From an uncultured Flavobacterium sp. (GTDB lineage Bacteria; Bacteroidota; Bacteroidia; Flavobacteriales; Flavobacteriaceae): a stretch of 7,933 nucleotides of DNA. The notes under the pieces were generated by a model. That model worked only from the letters and a program-made list of their open reading frames with translations, did not search any database and was not told the origin of the DNA. Below, one piece after another: positions 1,641 through 7,933 of this stretch; the first letter of the stretch is position 1; every line of letters begins with the position of its first letter. The stretch lies in NCBI GenBank assembly GCA_946480635.1, contig CAMLKV010000092.1, positions 1 to 7,933 on the forward strand. Reading direction: 5' to 3'. A program made the position numbers and the translations under genes.

Positions 1641-2477
1641 ATGAAATTCAAAACTTTAGAAAACACATCTATCTCAGAAATTGTAGAAGCTTTCAATCTT
1701 GCATTTTCTGATTATGTGACTCCTTTACAATTAACATTGCAACAATTACAGAATAAAATAATTGCTGAAGATCTTAATCTACATTGGTCTGCTGGAGCTT
1801 TTAAGAATGATAAACTTGTTGGATATATTCTCCATGGCCTTAGAGACAATACACTATATAATGGCGGAACTGGCGTAGTTCCTGAATTTAGAGGGAAACA
1901 AATTACCAAAAAACTATATGCTTTTATTTTTGAAAAAATAAAAAACAGTGACATTTCGAGTATTCAACTTGAAGTTATTACAGAAAACAAAAAAGCAATA
2001 AATATTTATGAGCAAGTAGGATTTGAAAAAGTTAGAACCCTAAATTGTTATAAAGGAGTTTTAAATTTTGAATCATTTATTTCATCCAAGGATGACTTAG
2101 AGTTTGTTGAAACAGATTTAAAAAGTATTGATTCAACTTTAGATTATAATGCTTCTTGGCAAAACAATAATAGTTCCTTATATAATCTTTCAAAACTCGA
2201 AGACATAAAATGTTTTCATTTATTACATGAGAAAAAAAACATAGGCTTTGTAATTTACAACAACACTTCCAGAAAAATTCATCAAATCAAAATCTGTCAG
2301 AATGATTTTGACAGAGAAATAATTTCAAAAGAATTATTTCATTTCCTGTCAAAAAAGTATTCTAATTCTTTTGTTGCTACAAATATTGACAATTCTTCTA
2401 GAATTACAAACGAAATTTTTGAATCAGTTAAACTAGAGTGTTTCTTACAACAATATGAAATGATAATGAAATTATAA
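1641..2477 (+). CDS. GNAT-family N-acetyltransferase with two GNAT-like halves
   Basis: Predicted cytoplasmic acetyl-CoA-dependent N-acetyltransferase of 278 residues; the substrate cannot be told from sequence. The N-terminal half (about 1-140) is a recognisable GNAT fold: the beta4/motif A stretch NGGTGVVPEFRGKQIT at 74-89 and the motif B stretch ENKKAINIYEQVGFEKV at 115-131. The acetyl-CoA loop is unusual, because the two small positions of the usual R-x-x-G-x-G/A pattern are Q87 and T89. The C-terminal half (about 150-278) has a weak GNAT-like strand/helix pattern (IGFVIYNN at 201-208) and ends with LECFLQQYEMIMKL, like the last strands of a GNAT domain. I read it as a degenerate second repeat. 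The ATG lies 3 nt after the recG stop, which suggests the same transcript but not a shared function. A terminator follows directly. Confidence 0.85.
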   Translation: MKFKTLENTSISEIVEAFNLAFSDYVTPLQLTLQQLQNKIIAEDLNLHWSAGAFKNDKLVGYILHGLRDNTLYNGGTGVVPEFRGKQITKKLYAFIFEKIKNSDISSIQLEVITENKKAINIYEQVGFEKVRTLNCYKGVLNFESFISSKDDLEFVETDLKSIDSTLDYNASWQNNNSSLYNLSKLEDIKCFHLLHEKKNIGFVIYNNTSRKIHQIKICQNDFDREIISKELFHFLSKKYSNSFVATNIDNSSRITNEIFESVKLECFLQQYEMIMKL

Positions 2478-2481
2478 TAAT

Positions 2482-2510
2482 AAAGCCTAAGATTTACTTA
2501 GGCTTTTTTT
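2482..2510 (+). terminator. Rho-independent terminator after the GNAT gene
   Basis: A perfect 10-bp inverted repeat (AAAGCCTAAG, 5-nt loop ATTTA, CTTAGGCTTT) starts 4 nt after the acetyltransferase stop and runs into a T tract at 2504-2510. It lies between two convergent genes. In the opposite direction the hairpin is followed by a T-rich but interrupted tract, so it may also weakly stop transcripts of the DUF2911 gene. Confidence 0.9.
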
Positions 2511-2529
2511 AAAATATTGTAATCGCAGA

Positions 2530-3375
2530 TTATTTCTTACTCCATTCTTTGATACTATCTTCATTCATTTTCACATAATCAGCATTATTAGCACCTTTTG
2601 CAGCTTCTAAAGAAATTTTAGCTGTTTCAACTGCTGCTTTTTTATCTCCTAATTTAGCTTGAATTTGAGATTTTAAACGTGAATACCAATATGGCTTTTT
2701 CTCATGCATATCATATGCCTTAGATACATAAGTTAATGCTTTGTTTAAATCTCCGTTTGAAGTAAAATAATAATTAGCAGCATTATAGTAATCAACTGCT
2801 GAAGGACCTGCTAAAACTTTATCAATACTTTCCATTGCGATTTTTTGAGTTGGTACTTCAAATTTTAACGCTACTAAAGTTTTTTCCCATGAAAATTCTA
2901 AATTGGCAAAATTATTATCTGTATTATTAATTCCAATTGTAAAGGTTTCAACATGTCTATTTAATAATTCAGTTTTAGCTGAAGCTTTAAGAGCTACTTT
3001 ACTATCATCCCATTTTTCAGGATTCCCCCAATTGTTTGTATCTGTATAGAAAAAAATCTCCCATTCATCAGCCTTAGGAGTTACATAAAGAGCATATTTT
3101 CCTTTTTTCAAAGTAGCTCCATTTATTACAACATCTTCAGAAAAAGATATTGTAGTATTAGCATTGGCACCGGTTCTCCATACTTTTCCAAAAGGAACTA
3201 AATCTCCAAAAATTACGCGCCCTTTTGCACTAGGTCTAGAATACTCAATTTCAACATCAGTTAATCCAACTTTTTGAATTAAAGTTGATTTTGGACTAGC
3301 TTGAGGAACTTTAATTTGTGCTTCAACAGACAAAGAAGCAATAAAAACTGCAATAGCTACAATAAATCGTATCAT
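2530..3375 (-). CDS. Exported DUF2911 protein with C-terminal TPR-like repeats
   Basis: A 281-residue protein with a clear signal peptide at 1-20 (hydrophobic FIVAIAVFIASLSV, then EAQ, a typical Bacteroidota signal-peptidase I site), so it is probably periplasmic. Residues about 21-175 match the DUF2911 pattern that I recognise in Bacteroidota: IEYSRPSAKGRVIFG at 43-57, PFGKVWRTGANANTTI at 61-76, LKKGKYALYVTP at 89-100, and the DEWEIFFYTDTNNWG region at 103-117. Residues about 190-278 form helical pairs with TPR character (DYYNAANYYFTSNGDLNKAL at 195-214, then KPYWYSRLKSQIQAKLGDKK at 227-246). Biochemical function is unknown. The gene is monocistronic by layout, transcribed away from the SRPBCC-photolyase operon and towards the GNAT gene. 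The start is supported by the signal peptide and by a -7 element at 3401-3408. Confidence 0.88.
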   Translation of the reverse strand: MIRFIVAIAVFIASLSVEAQIKVPQASPKSTLIQKVGLTDVEIEYSRPSAKGRVIFGDLVPFGKVWRTGANANTTISFSEDVVINGATLKKGKYALYVTPKADEWEIFFYTDTNNWGNPEKWDDSKVALKASAKTELLNRHVETFTIGINNTDNNFANLEFSWEKTLVALKFEVPTQKIAMESIDKVLAGPSAVDYYNAANYYFTSNGDLNKALTYVSKAYDMHEKKPYWYSRLKSQIQAKLGDKKAAVETAKISLEAAKGANNADYVKMNEDSIKEWSKK

Positions 3376-3400
3376 TTTATAAATTAATTTGTTTATTTAT

Positions 3401-3408
3401 CAAAGATA
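3401..3408 (-). promoter_or_regulatory. -7 promoter element of the DUF2911 gene
   Basis: On the minus strand this reads TATCTTTG, a perfect match to the Bacteroidota consensus TAnnTTTG, ending 25 nt before the ATG. No clear TTG -33 element is present at the usual distance upstream; that stretch is A/T-rich. Confidence 0.7.
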
Positions 3409-3475
3409 AGTTTCTGGACTTTTTTTTATTGTTAATAAAACTATAAAATAAAAAGATTATTGTTTAATTTATTTT

Positions 3476-3483
3476 TAATTTTG
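3476..3483 (+). promoter_or_regulatory. -7 promoter element of the SRPBCC-photolyase operon
   Basis: TAATTTTG matches TAnnTTTG exactly and ends 17 nt before the ATG at 3501, implying a leader of only about 10-13 nt. The nearest upstream TTG (3460-3462) is 13 nt from the -7 element, shorter than usual, so the -33 region is weak. With 3401-3408 this makes the 125-bp gap 3376-3500 a divergent promoter region; nothing else was seen in it. Confidence 0.65.
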
Positions 3484-3500
3484 TTAAACAATTTATCTAA

Positions 3501-3962
3501 ATGAAGTTATATTCTATACATACAAAACAAAAATTTCCTATTACAATAGATACTGCTTGGGAATTTTTCAGTGATCCTAAAAATTTGAATACAATCACTC
3601 CCGATTCCATGAAGTTTATCACACTTTCTGGTGATGACAAAAAGATGTTTTCAGGACAAATTATTCATTATAAAATATCACCGTTTCCATTCATAACGAT
3701 GCAGTGGGTTACCGAAATAACTCATGTTGAAGACAAAAAGTTTTTTGTCGATGAACAACGATTTGGACCGTACGCCTTTTGGCATCATAAACATTTTTTT
3801 ACTGAAATAGAAGGAGGAATTTTAATGGAAGATATAGTACATTATAAAGTCCCTTTTGGGATAATTGGTCAGCTTTTTCATCCTTTGCTTGTTAGACCTA
3901 AATTGGAAGAAATTTTCACTTTCAGAAAACAAAAGTTAACCGAAATATTTGGAGTATTATGA
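3501..3962 (+). CDS. SRPBCC-fold (START/Bet v1-like) protein paired with photolyase
   Basis: A 153-residue soluble protein of the SRPBCC superfamily, the COG4276-like group sometimes mislabelled 'cell division inhibitor'. Family hallmarks: the opening strand and helix FPITIDTAWEFFSDPKNLNTITP at 12-34, the central strands around QWVTEITHVEDKKFFVDEQRFGPYAFWHHKHFF at 68-100, the strand GILMEDIVHYKVPFG at 106-120, and the long C-terminal helix VRPKLEEIFTFRKQKLTEIF at 131-150. The fold usually encloses a hydrophobic ligand; none is known for this group. An in-frame TAA directly precedes the ATG at 3501, so this is the first possible ATG start. The stop overlaps the photolyase start as ATGA (3959-3962), so translation of the two is probably coupled. 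The pairing suggests an accessory role in light-dependent repair, which is inference only. Confidence 0.82.
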   Translation: MKLYSIHTKQKFPITIDTAWEFFSDPKNLNTITPDSMKFITLSGDDKKMFSGQIIHYKISPFPFITMQWVTEITHVEDKKFFVDEQRFGPYAFWHHKHFFTEIEGGILMEDIVHYKVPFGIIGQLFHPLLVRPKLEEIFTFRKQKLTEIFGVL

Positions 3963-5245
3963 CAATTTTTTGGTTTAGACGTGATTTACGATTAGAAGAT
4001 AATGTTGGTCTTTTTCATTCCTTATTTGAAAATGAACAAGTTCTACCCATATTTATATTTGATACCACTATCTTATCACAACTATCGAAAAATGATGCGC
4101 GAGTTACTTTTATACATGAATTATTATCTGAGATTCAAAAGAAATTAAAACTTAAAAATAAATCGCTAGCTCTATTTTATGGCAAACCGAAAGAAGTTTT
4201 TGAGAAACTAATTTCTGAAAATAAAATAACTTCTGTTTATACCAATCATGATTATGAGCCATATGCTCGTAAGCGTGACAAAGAATTAAATGATTTCTTC
4301 AAAACAAATGGAATTTCATTCAAAACTTGCAAAGATCAGGTTGTTTTCGAAAAAAGCGAAGTCATTAAAGATGATGGAACTCCTTATGTTGTTTATACTC
4401 CCTATTCAAAAAAATGGAAAGAGAAATTAAGCAAATCAACAATTAAAAATTTCCCTTCAGACGAATATTTAGATAAGATTATAAATCATGATTATCCGTT
4501 TCTTTTATTAGAAAACATTGGGTTTTCAAAATCTGATATAAAAGTTCCAGATTACAACATTAAAAAATCTTTAATCAATAATTATCAGGATACCAGAAAC
4601 TTTCCGGCTATTGAAGGAACTTCTCACTTAGCTCCTCACCTTCGATTTGGTAGTGTCTCAATAAGAAAATTGGTTCTTAATGCTCTTGAATTTCAAAATC
4701 AAACATTTTTAAACGAATTGATTTGGAGGGAGTTCTTCATGCAAATCCTTTGGCATTTTCCACATACTATAAACAAAAGTTTCAAAGAAAAGTACGATTA
4801 CATTAAGTGGGAAAACGATGAAGATAATTTCAAAAAATGGTGTGAAGGAAAAACTGGTTATCCATTTGTAGATGCAGGAATGAGGGAGCTAAATGCGACA
4901 GGACACATGCATAATCGTGTTCGTATGATTGTAGCCAGCTTTTTATGCAAACATCTATTGATAGACTGGCGCTGGGGAGAAGCTTATTTTGCAAACAAAC
5001 TTCTGGATTACGAACAATCGAGCAATGTTGGAAATTGGCAATGGGCAGCTGGAAGTGGTGTTGATGCTGCTCCATATTTCAGGATTTTTAATCCAACTGA
5101 ACAAATCAAAAAGTTCGACAAAGACTTAAAATACATCAAAAAATGGATTCCTGAACTTGAAACTTCAAGATACCCATCACCTATAGTTAATCACAAAGAA
5201 GCCAGAGAAAAGTGTTTAAAAGTATATAAAGAAGCTGTGGGCTAA
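3959..5245 (+). CDS. phrB: Deoxyribodipyrimidine (CPD) photolyase, class I, FAD-dependent
   Basis: Light-driven flavoenzyme that splits cyclobutane pyrimidine dimers. The N-terminal alpha/beta antenna domain begins MTIFWFRRDLRLEDN; the FAD domain includes TSHLAPHLRFGSVS at 221-234, WREFF at 256-260, GYPFVDAGMRELNATGHMHNRVR around 300-322, and NWQWAAGSGVDAAPYFRIFNP at 359-379. By hand alignment to E. coli PhrB, the electron-transfer tryptophan triad is conserved (W284, W337, W360 for W306, W359, W382), as are lesion-contact residues (E253, W256, M323, W362 for E274, W277, M345, W384). This favours a repair enzyme over a cryptochrome. At 428 residues it is shorter than E. coli PhrB; part of the difference is a missing loop near the C terminus, between IPEL and YPSPIV. 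The antenna cofactor cannot be assigned. It is second in a two-gene operon with the SRPBCC gene, overlapping by 4 nt. Confidence 0.95.
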   Translation: MTIFWFRRDLRLEDNVGLFHSLFENEQVLPIFIFDTTILSQLSKNDARVTFIHELLSEIQKKLKLKNKSLALFYGKPKEVFEKLISENKITSVYTNHDYEPYARKRDKELNDFFKTNGISFKTCKDQVVFEKSEVIKDDGTPYVVYTPYSKKWKEKLSKSTIKNFPSDEYLDKIINHDYPFLLLENIGFSKSDIKVPDYNIKKSLINNYQDTRNFPAIEGTSHLAPHLRFGSVSIRKLVLNALEFQNQTFLNELIWREFFMQILWHFPHTINKSFKEKYDYIKWENDEDNFKKWCEGKTGYPFVDAGMRELNATGHMHNRVRMIVASFLCKHLLIDWRWGEAYFANKLLDYEQSSNVGNWQWAAGSGVDAAPYFRIFNPTEQIKKFDKDLKYIKKWIPELETSRYPSPIVNHKEAREKCLKVYKEAVG

Positions 5246-5259
5246 TATTCCCACAACTT
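5232..5259. terminator. Hairpin between photolyase and HAD genes, possible terminator
   Basis: AAG-c-TGTGGG, an 8-nt loop, then CCCACA-a-CTT: a 6-bp core stem extended by 3 bp across one mismatch. The photolyase stop codon (5243-5245) sits in the loop. The following tracts are only moderately T-rich on either strand, so it is a weaker candidate than the other two terminators here. It is the only hairpin seen between these convergent genes. Confidence 0.5.
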
Positions 5260-5264
5260 TAAAT

Positions 5265-5909
5265 TTATAGAGAATTTACATCAATTTCATCAAAATGTTT
5301 TATCACTCTATCTGCAAGAGATAAATCTTGATGCTTAGAATTAAAACTATCATAACCTATACAGTAGATATCTGCAGCTTTTGCGGCAATCACACCATTT
5401 GTACTGTCTTCAATCACCACACAATTCTCTTTAGGTGCTATAGAAAGTGATGCTGCATGTAAAAAAATAGCTGGATCAGGTTTCGATTTTGGAAAATCTT
5501 CACCACTAACTTTATGAGTAAAGTATTGGTTTAAATCAAATCGGTTAAAAACTCTATTTATAGTACTATTTGAAGCGGATGAAGCTAAAATTAACTGAAT
5601 TCCATTAAAATGTAGTTTCTTGATTAAATCTAAAACACCATCAATTAATTCTAAATCGGGCTTAGTATCAAAAGCTTCATTGAATAAATGACGCTTACGC
5701 AGAATTAAATCTTCAACATCATGTTCTAAATTAAAATGTCCTTTTATTTTCTGAAAAACATTTCGAGTAGAATTCCCTGTAAAAGACGAGTACATTTCCT
5801 CTGAAACTTCAATTCCTAATTCAACAAAGTGTTGGTCGTATGCATATTTATGAACGGGTTCTGTATCTACAATTACGCCATCCATGTCAAAAATTACAGT
5901 CTTTATCAT
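5265..5909 (-). CDS. HAD-superfamily phosphatase, beta-phosphoglucomutase-like
   Basis: A 214-residue cytoplasmic HAD hydrolase of subfamily I with a helical cap. Motif I is VIFDMDGVIVDTEP at 5-18, with nucleophile D8 and acid/base D10. The cap lies at about 16-85. Motif II is LASSAS at 108-113, motif III Lys is K143 in KSKPDP, and motif IV is VVIEDSTNGV at 164-173 with E167/D168 for Mg2+. The DGVIVDTEP and EDSTNG signatures are those of sugar-phosphate phosphatases and beta-phosphoglucomutases; the exact substrate cannot be told. I choose the ATG at 5909. An in-frame TTG at 5924 would add five residues but lies about where transcription should begin given the -7 element at 5930-5937, and HAD proteins normally start just before motif I. 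The gene is monocistronic, divergent from the sigma operon and convergent with the photolyase. Confidence 0.9.
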   Translation of the reverse strand: MIKTVIFDMDGVIVDTEPVHKYAYDQHFVELGIEVSEEMYSSFTGNSTRNVFQKIKGHFNLEHDVEDLILRKRHLFNEAFDTKPDLELIDGVLDLIKKLHFNGIQLILASSASNSTINRVFNRFDLNQYFTHKVSGEDFPKSKPDPAIFLHAASLSIAPKENCVVIEDSTNGVIAAKAADIYCIGYDSFNSKHQDLSLADRVIKHFDEIDVNSL

Positions 5910-5929
5910 TACCTTTATTTGCAAAGTGA

Positions 5930-5937
5930 CAAAGATA
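5930..5937 (-). promoter_or_regulatory. -7 promoter element of the HAD gene
   Basis: The minus strand reads TATCTTTG, a perfect TAnnTTTG and the same octamer as the one before the DUF2911 gene. It ends 20 nt before the ATG at 5909 and so helps to decide that start over the in-frame TTG at 5924. No TTG lies at the usual -33 distance. Confidence 0.65.
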
Positions 5938-5962
5938 CAAAGTCAAAAGTTTTTTCATCTCT

Positions 5963-5995
5963 AATTAAACCTTTTTAAATATCTTTAGTCAAACA
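5963..5995 (+). promoter_or_regulatory. Putative ECF-type promoter of the sigma operon, copy A
   Basis: AATTAAACCTTTT (5963-5975), 12 nt, GTCAAACA (5988-5995). The AAC to GTC spacing is 17 nt, as in ECF promoters. The same two blocks recur at identical spacing at 6549-6581. A near-match to the housekeeping -7 element (TATCTTTA, 5980-5987) overlaps, so dual use is possible. A transcript starting 6-8 nt after GTC would begin at about 5997, leaving a leader of roughly 15 nt before the TTG start at 6012. Confidence 0.6.
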
Positions 5996-6011
5996 GATTA
6001 AATTACCTCAA

Positions 6012-6554
6012 TTGCAGGACGAAAAAGCATTTATAAACGAATTATTAAATCCAAAAACGCAAAATGAAGCGTTTCGGAAATTAGTACGTGAATACCAACG
6101 TCCGTTATACGCACATGTTCGTAACATGGTGCTAAATCACGATGATGCCGATGATGTTTTGCAAAATACTTTTGTAAAAATTTTTCAGAATTTAAAGAAT
6201 TTTAAAGGTGAGAGTAAATTATATTCCTGGATGTATCGAATTGCAACTAACGAAGCGATAAATTTTATTAATACCAGAAGTAAAAAAAGTGGAATTTCAA
6301 ACGAAGAATTAAAAGAAAAATTAGTCAAAAATTTAGAATCTGATGTTGATTATGACGGTGATGAAATTCAGTTGAAACTGCAAAACGCTGTTGCAACATT
6401 ACCAGAAAAACAACAGCAAGTATTTAAAATGAAATATTTTGAAGAACTGAAATATGAAGAAATAAGCGAAATATTAGGAACTTCTGTAGGAGCATTAAAA
6501 GCATCTTATTTTCATGCAGTAAAAAAAATAGAGGATTTTTTAAATTCGAATTAA
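6012..6554 (+). CDS. ECF-type RNA polymerase sigma-70 family factor
   Basis: A 180-residue sigma factor of the extracytoplasmic-function type, with only regions 2 and 4. Region 2 is at about 20-90: FRKLVREYQRPLYAHVRNMV (core binding), the acidic DDADDVLQNTFVKIF at 44-58, and the -10-recognition helix FKGESKLYSWMYRIATNEAI at 64-83. The linker at about 90-120 is charged. Region 4 is at about 121-178: LPEKQQQVFKMKYFEELKYEEISEILG, then the helix-turn-helix recognition helix SVGALKASYFHAVKKI at 158-173. Start: no ATG exists between the in-frame stop at 5976-5978 and M39, and TTG at 6012 gives a normal N terminus, so a TTG start is chosen; it may limit expression. It is the first gene of an operon with a single-pass membrane protein and an exported sensor-like protein, presumably its regulators. 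ECF-like motifs at 5963 and 6549 suggest autoregulation. Confidence 0.92.
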   Translation: MQDEKAFINELLNPKTQNEAFRKLVREYQRPLYAHVRNMVLNHDDADDVLQNTFVKIFQNLKNFKGESKLYSWMYRIATNEAINFINTRSKKSGISNEELKEKLVKNLESDVDYDGDEIQLKLQNAVATLPEKQQQVFKMKYFEELKYEEISEILGTSVGALKASYFHAVKKIEDFLNSN

Positions 6555-6581
6555 ACCTTTTCCGTTTAATTTTGTCAAACA
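6549..6581 (+). promoter_or_regulatory. Putative ECF-type promoter, copy B, inside the sigma operon
   Basis: AATTAAACCTTTT (6549-6561), 12 nt, GTCAAACA (6574-6581), matching copy A in both blocks and in spacing. The sigma stop codon (6552-6554) lies inside the upstream block. A perfect housekeeping -7 element, TAATTTTG (6567-6574), overlaps the GTC block. A start 6-8 nt after GTC would fall at about 6582-6584, directly before the ATG at 6585, predicting a leaderless or nearly leaderless mRNA for the membrane protein and sensor. Confidence 0.6.
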
Positions 6582-6584
6582 AAT

Positions 6585-6974
6585 ATGAAAAAGATAGATT
6601 TAGAAAACGATAAAAAAATAGAATCTGGTTTCAGAATACCAGATAACTACTTCGATTCTTTTGAAGACAGATTAATGCAACGCATATCTGAAGAAGAAAA
6701 AACTGTAAAGGTAATCTCTTTGTGGCAACGCAAATCAGTTTGGATATCAGGAATTGCAGCTGCAGTTGTAATATCAATTGGAACATGGATGTATTTTGAA
6801 CAACAAAAAACTGAAAATATAGAAATATCACAAGAATATCTTGCATACGAAAATGATATCACCACAGAAGATATTGCGAAACATTTAACCGACGAAGAAT
6901 TAACAAACTTAGAATTAGAAATAACTGATTTTGATACACAAACAGAATCTTATATAAATGAATACTTAAACTAA
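6585..6974 (+). CDS. Single-pass membrane protein, candidate anti-sigma factor
   Basis: I do not recognise a named family. The 129-residue protein has a charged N-terminal segment at 1-50 with a conserved-looking IPDNYFDSFEDRLMQRI at 18-34, one transmembrane helix at about 51-71 (SVWISGIAAAVVISIGTWMYF) and an acidic C-terminal segment at 72-129. Basic residues just before the helix (K42, R49, K50) and the acidic tail predict N-in/C-out. This places about 50 residues in the cytoplasm, enough for a short helical anti-sigma domain as in CnrY. There is no cysteine, so it is not a zinc-binding anti-sigma (HxxxCxxC) protein. It starts 30 nt after the sigma gene and ends 1 nt before the sensor gene. 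The anti-sigma role is inferred from topology and position; an accessory membrane anchor is the alternative. Confidence 0.8.
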   Translation: MKKIDLENDKKIESGFRIPDNYFDSFEDRLMQRISEEEKTVKVISLWQRKSVWISGIAAAVVISIGTWMYFEQQKTENIEISQEYLAYENDITTEDIAKHLTDEELTNLELEITDFDTQTESYINEYLN

Positions 6975-6975
6975 A

Positions 6976-7422
6976 ATGAAACAACTTTTTATTATATTAT
7001 TTCTACTGTTTAACACTTTTATTTTTAGTCAAGATAGGGATGAAAGAATTGAACGTGTTAAGGCTTTAAGAGTAGCATATATTTCTGATAGATTAGATTT
7101 GACTCCGGAAGAAGCGCAAAAGTTTTGGCCAGTTTTTAATCAATTTGATGATAAAATGGATGATTTGCATAAACAAAAAAGACAATTAATGTTCAAATTA
7201 CGTCCAGAAAATGCATCTAATTTATCAGAAAAAGAATCGGCTCAACTAATGGCTGAGGATGACAGAATAGAAACTGAAATTCAGAACAATAAAAAACAAC
7301 TGGTAAAAAATTTACAAGGAGTAATTCCAAATCAGAAGATTCTAATGCTTCGTCAAATAGAAATTGAGTTCAAGCAAAAACTTTTAAAACAAATAAAAAA
7401 TCGCAGAGAATTTAGAAAATAA
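6976..7422 (+). CDS. Exported Spy/CpxP-like helical protein, probable ECF sensor
   Basis: A 148-residue protein with a signal peptide at 1-19 (KQLFIILFLLFNTFIFSQ) and a mature all-helical, highly charged domain. Residues 36-58 (ISDRLDLTPEEAQKFWPVFNQFD) and the later IPNQKILMLRQIEIEFKQ at 117-134 form a two-fold helical-hook pattern like the LTxxQ repeats of the Spy/CpxP/CnrX group. Residues 59-112 are probably a long coiled-coil-like helix pair. I recall such proteins next to flavobacterial ECF genes being annotated 'sensor of ECF-type sigma factor'; the signal sensed is not known. The mature part has no cysteine and a single histidine (H65), so metal sensing as in CnrX is not supported. The ATG lies 1 nt after the stop of the membrane-protein gene, so cotranscription is near certain. 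The stop codon lies inside the terminator stem. Confidence 0.85.
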   Translation: MKQLFIILFLLFNTFIFSQDRDERIERVKALRVAYISDRLDLTPEEAQKFWPVFNQFDDKMDDLHKQKRQLMFKLRPENASNLSEKESAQLMAEDDRIETEIQNNKKQLVKNLQGVIPNQKILMLRQIEIEFKQKLLKQIKNRREFRK

Positions 7423-7448
7423 AAAGAGCCTAACGGCTCTTTTTATTT
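7417..7448. terminator. Bidirectional terminator containing both convergent stop codons
   Basis: A perfect 14-bp stem (7417-7430 with 7435-7448) closed by the tetraloop TAAC; the GC core is AGAGCC/GGCTCT. Its A-rich and T-rich outer arms supply a T tract in both directions. The stop of the sensor gene (7420-7422) and that of the minus-strand beta-propeller gene (7443-7445) lie opposite each other in the stem and base-pair. Confidence 0.93.
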
Positions 7449-7933
7449 AAATGTTAATTTTATTATTCGATTTTTACCAGTCGCCACTGCTGATTTTTCA
7501 TCAATGAATCGAAACGTCAGTAAATCTTTATCTTCTGCAAGTTTTGTCCAACTCTCTCCAGAGTCATTAGAATAAAAAATTCCGTTTGCTCCTACTTCTA
7601 CAATTCCTTTTCCTTCGCTATTAGGAACATATTGGATACATGAAGCATAACCAAAACCCTCATTATTAGCTACAATCCTCCAGGTTTTCCCTCCATCATT
7701 AGTAATTGCTTTATTTTGAGAATTCTGTAAAGGTTTTTCGTAGTCTCCTCCAGCGATAATTCCTATTAAATCGTTATAAAAATCGGCACAGAAAGCACCT
7801 GTCATAGTTCCTCCTTGAATAATTGGAGTTTCATGTATTATCCAATTCTCTCCTTTATCAGCAGAAACAGCAACTCTAGATTTTTTTCCACCAGATACCA
7901 TAAGCATGGTTTTATTTCTCAAAATTAAATTTG
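7443..7933 (-). CDS. BNR/Asp-box beta-propeller protein, C-terminal part (N terminus beyond right edge)
   Basis: The C-terminal 162 residues of a repeat protein whose frame is open to the right window edge. An in-frame TTG at 7922 is not taken as the start, because the protein begins inside a propeller blade and the two in-frame ATGs in the first 20 codons lie inside a blade strand (TMLMVSGGKKSRVAVS). Three Asp-box motifs of the S/T-x-D-x-G-x-x-W type are visible: SADKGENW, TNDGGKTW and SNDSGESW, spaced about 44-54 residues, as in sialidase-like and YCF48-like propellers. Flavobacterial homologues are often annotated loosely as 'oxidoreductase' or 'glycosyl hydrolase'; no catalytic residues support either. 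A full length of about 350 residues is typical, and export is likely but the signal peptide is outside the window. It is convergent with the sigma operon and shares its terminator. Confidence 0.85.
   Translation of the reverse strand, partial: NLILRNKTMLMVSGGKKSRVAVSADKGENWIIHETPIIQGGTMTGAFCADFYNDLIGIIAGGDYEKPLQNSQNKAITNDGGKTWRIVANNEGFGYASCIQYVPNSEGKGIVEVGANGIFYSNDSGESWTKLAEDKDLLTFRFIDEKSAVATGKNRIIKLTFK

Follow-up and report, generated by a model that had tools for sequence, protein, structure and literature searches.

ECF-type promoter-like sites paired around a sigma factor gene of an uncultured Flavobacterium, and a matching motif before envelope genes of the Flavobacteriaceae

A three-gene locus with two promoter-like sites

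The DNA analyzed here, referred to as the window, is a stretch of 7,933 nt from an uncultured Flavobacterium sp. Its open reading frames (ORFs) place genes for a sigma factor, a candidate anti-sigma factor and a sensor-like protein in this order on the forward strand (Table 1), with a HAD-type hydrolase gene upstream of the operon in divergent orientation. A domain scan of the sigma protein found region 2 at residues 29-95 and region 4 at residues 126-178 of 185 aa, and no family for region 1 or region 3; a sigma-70 protein with regions 2 and 4 only is an ECF (group IV) factor. Judged by sequence, the putative operon has the content of a CnrYXH-type system, with a sigma factor, a probable anti-sigma factor and a periplasmic sensor-like protein encoded together. 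Elsewhere in the window, positions 3501-5245 hold a DNA photolyase gene and a gene for a small protein without a Pfam match, which overlap by 4 bases and have no motif site. No Rfam family reached its gathering score anywhere in the window.

Table 1. Coordinates of the sigma factor operon and its associated sites in the window
Feature	Position	Strand	Details
P1, ECF-type promoter of the sigma gene (putative)	5963..5995	+	−35 block ATTAAACCTTTT; −10 GTC at 5988-5990; exact pattern match
ECF sigma factor gene	6012..6554	+	ORF; TTG start; stop TAA at 6552-6554; Sigma70_r2 and Sigma70_r4_2
P2, second ECF-type promoter (putative)	6549..6581	+	−10 GTC at 6574-6576; exact match; −35 block holds the sigma stop codon
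Probable anti-sigma factor gene	6585..6974	+	ORF, 129 aa; short N-terminal part with a GFxxPxxYF motif, long helix, C-terminal part
Periplasmic sensor-like protein gene	6976..7422	+	ORF, 148 aa; signal peptide by eye; all-helical, CnrX/Spy-like
Likely intrinsic terminator, end of the three-gene operon	7422..7443	+	Hairpin by eye; absent from the list of the terminator scan

A sequence-only reading of the window had described two identical copies of a pair of blocks with 12 nt between them. The pattern AATTAAACCTTTT-N12-GTCAAACA matches both P1 and P2 with 0 mismatches, and had 0 matches in 200 dinucleotide shuffles of the window. The same reading had seen no third copy, and a search allowing up to 3 mismatches returned none in the window. 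The spacers, TAAATATCTTTA at 5976-5987 in P1 and CCGTTTAATTTT at 6562-6573 in P2, agree at 4 of 12 positions on direct reading, as had been counted by eye, and the base count of the AAC-N17-GTC core was also correct. E. coli sigma-E promoters have this same AAC-N17-GTC geometry. At the level of sequence, the AAC-type −35 element and GTC-type −10 element before the sigma gene are those of an ECF factor's own promoter. By a rule of thumb for start positions taken from the E. coli sigma-E promoters, transcription is predicted to start near 6000 from P1, and at the ATG at 6585 or within a few bases of it from P2.

The second gene probably encodes an inhibitor of the sigma factor, a role that its place in the gene order fits. 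The window protein has no Pfam or NCBIfam family, and among 46 anti-sigma candidates from this and related loci no Pfam family was common to more than 2. In the accessible part of one survey, a class I anti-sigma domain (ASDI) lies beside only 6% of Bacteroidetes ECF factors (PMC7406223). Alignment of the candidates revealed a shared GFxxPxxYF module. Copies were counted as matches to P..(A)Y(F/L) within residues 1-90: the 24 Flavobacterium-type rows had one copy in 21 cases, two in 2 and none in 1, and 21 of the 22 rows from other Flavobacteriaceae had two. The window candidate has one long predicted helix, modeled with modest confidence (model pTM 0.30), which we take to be a membrane span; its short N-terminal part would fit a CnrY-like class II factor, in which a brief cytoplasmic segment wraps around sigma2 and sigma4, with the same pTM of only 0.30. 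One UniRef relative carries the name anti-sigma factor.

The third gene would encode the protein that senses the signal. Its AlphaFold model has a mean pLDDT of 91.9, and the top Foldseek match of the model is CnrX, a weak match (E 0.14); in the VIA-align rows many helical bundles tie. Several relatives of the protein are named "sensor of ECF-type sigma factor." The Spy/LTXXQ family (PF07813) was matched by 7 of 50 sensor sequences at E ≤ 0.01 (best 1.2e-4), the window protein not being one of them, and PDB sequence searches yielded no credible hit either for the sensor or for the two profiles.

Conservation of the two sites in orthologous loci

The sites were followed through the best 80 of 575 relatives, which together with the window make 81 loci. 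The 80 relatives have sigma proteins 70-83% identical to that of the window, and nearly all are labeled Flavobacterium or Flavobacteriaceae. P2 was found in 81/81 loci and P1 in 78/81, with one spacing throughout; at every P1 and P2 found, 16 bases lie between TTAAACC and NTC. The finder required TTAAAC and TC at a set distance, and those columns are fixed by construction. In the three loci without P1 (L043, L049 and L071), nothing better than 3 mismatches was present within 600 bases, and P2 was kept. Orthologous operons lacking both blocks had been named beforehand as the observation that would speak against the pair; there are 0 among the 81. Moreover, the TAA stop codon of the sigma gene lies inside the −35 block of P2 in all 81 loci.

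The consensus of the sites across these loci is ATTAAACC(T)TT(T)-N12-(G)TC(T/C/A)(A/T)A. Immediately ahead of TC, the 81 P2 sites carry either G (56) or A (25), and the 78 P1 sites carry T (43), G (25), A (9) or C (1). Given that the G of GTC is replaced by T in 43 of 78 cases, P1 may be weak in many species. In the window the second block is identical along its whole length in both copies, as the sequence-only reading had stated; across orthologues only NTC(T/C/A)(A/T)A is kept. The related claim that selection acts on the blocks and not on the spacer holds for P2, where the spacer is free. The P1 spacer, by contrast, keeps three positions (A16 in 70, T19 in 75 and A22 in 66 of 78 loci), a conservation absent from P2 in the 81 loci and from 57 unlinked sites described below. 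These positions belong to a partly conserved A(A/T)NT(T/C)NA element in the P1 spacer (window 5976-5987 and L001-L080), which is possibly a basal housekeeping start overlapping P1.

Further features of the close relatives concern translation. The sigma gene begins with a non-ATG codon in every one of the 81 loci (80 TTG, 1 GTG), suggesting that the sigma factor is weakly translated. From the G of GTC in P2 to the ATG of the anti-sigma gene the distance is mostly 11 nt (26/81) or 14 nt (39/81), and the mRNA of the anti-sigma gene should therefore be nearly leaderless. In F. psychrophilum, the leaderless class makes up 5.5% of the mRNAs examined, according to the accessible part of the study (PMC9723704). 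Judged by size and position only, ORFs fitting both downstream genes are present in 107/110 loci. Behind the P2 of L015, L027 and L028, no ORF of a size suited to an anti-sigma gene was picked up by the automatic search; in L015 the first ATG there is soon followed by a stop.

The pair also persists at greater distances. Among 30 further Flavobacteriaceae loci, with at most 1 mismatch of 11 core bases, P1 is present in 25, P2 in 22 and both in 19, and P2 lies over the sigma stop codon in 20 of the 22 loci that carry it. The 24 most distant loci (L265-L288, 44-66% identity) have P1 in 15, P2 in 12 and both in 9 at the same limit, against a control rate of 0.17% in 4800 shuffled upstream regions; half of these loci are without P2 within 1 mismatch. 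Pairs of sites are kept in a good part of these orthologues, extending to about 45% protein identity.

A genome-wide motif and a putative regulon

The sequence-only reading had offered the motif as a search pattern for a regulon. With the pattern TTAAACCNTT-N13-GTCNNA, 21 Flavobacterium-type genomes gave 87 matches at the exact spacing versus 16 for the reversed pattern. Four shorter spacings summed to 21 matches versus 70 reversed, and four longer spacings to 13 versus 50 reversed, such that the eight neighboring spacings together gave 34 matches versus the 87 at exact spacing. The forward pattern peaks at a single spacing, and the reversed pattern has no such peak. An excess was also seen in 59 further genomes of the family (131 matches versus 31 reversed).

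For 110 sites the downstream genes were read: 21 exact-spacing loci (of 29), 59 sites from 56/60 regions, and 30 loci from the 131 matches in the 59 family genomes. Gene families seen at least 3 times follow 88 of the 110 sites, and 65 of these are outside the sigma and anti-sigma genes. The commonest class is that of Spy/LTXXQ-like secreted proteins (19/110), followed by the anti-sigma gene (12/110), the sigma gene (11/110, one of them, L187, a paralogue), a lipoprotein family without a Pfam match (9/110), a beta-lactamase-fold lipoprotein (7/110), DUF1800 proteins (7/110), di-haem CCP_MauG lipoproteins (6/110) and outer-membrane barrels (5/110). GLPGLI proteins, RND adaptors, a further secreted family and a small lipoprotein account for 3/110 sites each. 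The remaining 22/110 sites, 12 before rarer genes (singletons or one pair) and 10 before no gene, may be due to chance. A length filter dropped four regions (L146, L175, L178 and L181) from this regulon table; two lie before di-haem-type genes, one before a lipoprotein like the 9-member family and one before another gene. Pfam and NCBIfam were compared with one or two proteins per scanned family, the remaining members being joined by BLAST, and the LTXXQ and MbnH matches of the scanned representatives fall below their cut-offs. In the three DUF1800 genes checked, the next gene downstream encodes 388 aa and presumably belongs to DUF1501. Two of the GLPGLI genes are followed by a gene for a protein of about 800 aa that by eye is of outer-membrane type.

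The distance to the start codon was tabulated for 57 of the 65 unlinked family sites (those of L144, L147, L150, L190 and L237 are left out); in this table the columns belonging to the search pattern are preset. For 50 of the 57, the ATG follows at 22-42 nt from the G of GTC. The sites of the GLPGLI and RND-adaptor genes are 63-150 nt from the ATG, and these are less secure members. G143 is the nearest relative for which a genome was found (sigma factor 92% identical; the locus 84-86% identical over most of 2152-7933), and its sites precede the genes for the sigma factor, the anti-sigma factor, a beta-lactamase-fold-type lipoprotein, a Spy-like protein and a GLPGLI-like protein.

Two further observations concern single kinds of locus. 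Four loci (L082, L089, L099 and L102) carry, ahead of a miaB-like gene, a sequence that closely resembles the motif but has two bases fewer in its spacing; it was kept out of the regulon. In L187 (genome G021) a paralogous second ECF sigma gene has a site in front of it and two small genes behind it, which may represent a sigma cascade.

Across the phylum, the motif tracks the sigma orthologue, in a comparison confounded by kinship. A relative of the sigma factor at E ≤ 1e-30 is present in 58/118 genomes. Motif matches numbered 56 versus 9 reversed where an orthologue reached E ≤ 1e-45 (25 genomes), 5 versus 8 where the relative was weaker (33 genomes), and 5 versus 5 where none reached E ≤ 1e-30 (60 genomes). 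Three of the last 5 matches fall in one genome, G195, where a 39% identical sigma gene has a site in front of it. Within the family, an orthologue at E ≤ 1e-50 is present in 54/60 Flavobacteriaceae genomes; of the other six, G043 carries 2 sites and G085 a single one, the latter before a Spy-like gene, versus 2 reversed matches in all 6.

Reading of the sites and the proposed circuit

The occurrence of 21 identical bases twice in one window might reflect a recent local duplication, or a repeat without a promoter role. However, relatives have the same pair around other spacer sequences, and copies elsewhere in the genomes stand before other genes; this conservation contradicts a duplication, which we reject as having next to no chance of being correct. 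It is also very improbable that the sites are housekeeping promoters recognized by a TAnnTTTG −7 box, with the shared upstream block being an activator site or chance. While the P2 of the window contains TAATTTTG, an exact TAnnTTTG, its P1 contains TATCTTTA, one base off, and the three conserved positions of the P1 spacer loosely resemble the box, an exact TAnnTTTG is present in only 1/78 P1 and 11/81 P2 sites of the close-relative set. Moreover, the spacers of the 57 unlinked sites have no TAnnTTTG-like box, while the AACC/GTC geometry is kept. The housekeeping reading was rejected because the box is not conserved.

A metal-response regulator like CnrYXH, with a metal as its signal, is suggested by the structural search, in which the third protein matched CnrX best, and by motif sites before an enzyme of the di-haem CCP_MauG family (MbnH-like, below the MbnH cut-off) and before an RND adaptor with a CusB/HlyD-type domain. 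CnrX, which has metal-bound entries among the structural matches, binds metals through His/Cys-type ligands, whereas no column in the 50 sensor sequences has His or Cys in at least 15 of them. This lack of conserved His or Cys weakens the case for metal sensing, and among the unlinked targets Spy/LTXXQ-like proteins and lipoproteins are the most frequent; we regard a metal signal as unlikely. A different, paralogous ECF factor, or several, might mainly read P1 and P2, given that a Flavobacteriaceae genome holds up to 42 matches to the sigma protein, that one motif site precedes a second ECF gene, and that F. psychrophilum has 7 ECF factors whose regulons may overlap, as its authors warn in the accessible part of their study (PMC9723704). 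This is unlikely, in that throughout the family the sites are found at this very sigma gene and follow its presence, and SM6 of F. psychrophilum has a CGT −10 box and a different gene set, with type IX secretion and band-7 targets, in the portions available of the same study (PMC9723704). SM6 nevertheless resembles the present case in having ECF-type promoters in the same genus, one of them before a sigma/anti-sigma pair, and the authors noted that other ECF starts may remain undiscovered.

The fixed spacing, the spacing-specific enrichment, the constant distance to the ATG of most recurring targets and the tracking of the sigma orthologue, confounded by kinship, fit the view that the ECF factor of the operon reads both sites. 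We consider it highly probable that this factor activates its own gene and gives a separate boost to the genes for the anti-sigma factor and the CnrX-like sensor, as the sequence-only reading had proposed; spacing, conservation and enrichment support the proposal, and the regulation itself we infer from them. Free sigma factor would read P1 to yield more sigma factor, anti-sigma factor and sensor, a positive autoregulation. From P2, with its −35 element over the sigma stop codon, a shorter, nearly leaderless transcript would serve the anti-sigma factor and sensor alone, such that each burst of sigma activity would refill its own brake. On a signal, probably envelope or misfolding stress, the periplasmic sensor would release the anti-sigma factor, and the released sigma factor would also switch on the unlinked envelope genes via the same motif. 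The weak sigma start codon and the separate P2 transcript would together keep the brake in excess, allowing a quick shut-off.

Self-activated ECF factors are textbook knowledge, and many readers will know ECF systems with autoregulation; of the published systems that we found, CnrYXH and CirYZ-spy come closest. RpoE-RseA of E. coli is likewise a self-activated envelope-stress ECF system with the AAC-N17-GTC geometry, but has a class I anti-sigma domain, sensing through RseB and proteases, and no Spy-like sensor in the operon. CnrYXH of Cupriavidus metallidurans shares with the present locus an ECF factor, a small membrane anti-sigma factor and a periplasmic sensor encoded together, the sensor model here resembling CnrX; it also has a promoter directly downstream of the sigma gene (the cnrC start) and an RND pump among its targets, in the accessible parts of two studies (PMC4598750, PMC4803752). 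The order of the genes differs, and the second promoter feeds an efflux pump there and the inhibitor here. CirY/CirZ-spy of Phocaeicola vulgatus, in the same phylum and compared by gene order, has the same succession of sigma factor, anti-sigma factor and Spy-like gene, and its sigma and spy genes are induced upon loss of the anti-sigma factor; its regulon, as the accessible part of the source describes it, consists mainly of local genes, whereas many unlinked genes carry the motif here (PMC13114119). Reo (PMC13114119) and the Dma1-type systems (PMC13088901) of Bacteroidales are also Bacteroidota ECF envelope circuits, but their anti-sigma factors span both membranes, in the portions of these sources available, whereas the candidate anti-sigma ORFs here encode 118-208 aa.

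A description of this motif or regulon was not found in the open-access literature, searched by titles and the starts of abstracts, with most subscription papers outside that scope. We propose tentatively, and at somewhat short of even chances, that the locus represents a widespread, missed envelope-stress system of the Bacteroidota, with an ECF factor translated from a weak UUG start, a second self-read promoter over its stop codon, a nearly leaderless mRNA, an anti-sigma factor of an unrecognized class (GFxxPxxYF), a CnrX-like sensor without conserved metal ligands and a portable regulon motif. If this is true, one of the missing anti-sigma classes would be supplied in a phylum where few ECF factors have a recognized one. 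In tens of genomes, one motif connects the conserved gene of the sigma factor with its probable brake and sensor and with envelope genes that form a coherent set. The motif can serve to search further genomes, the second protein is a candidate for an anti-sigma class of its own, and the proposed circuit is a simple design for feedback, in which the brake would be driven by the sigma factor's own second promoter.
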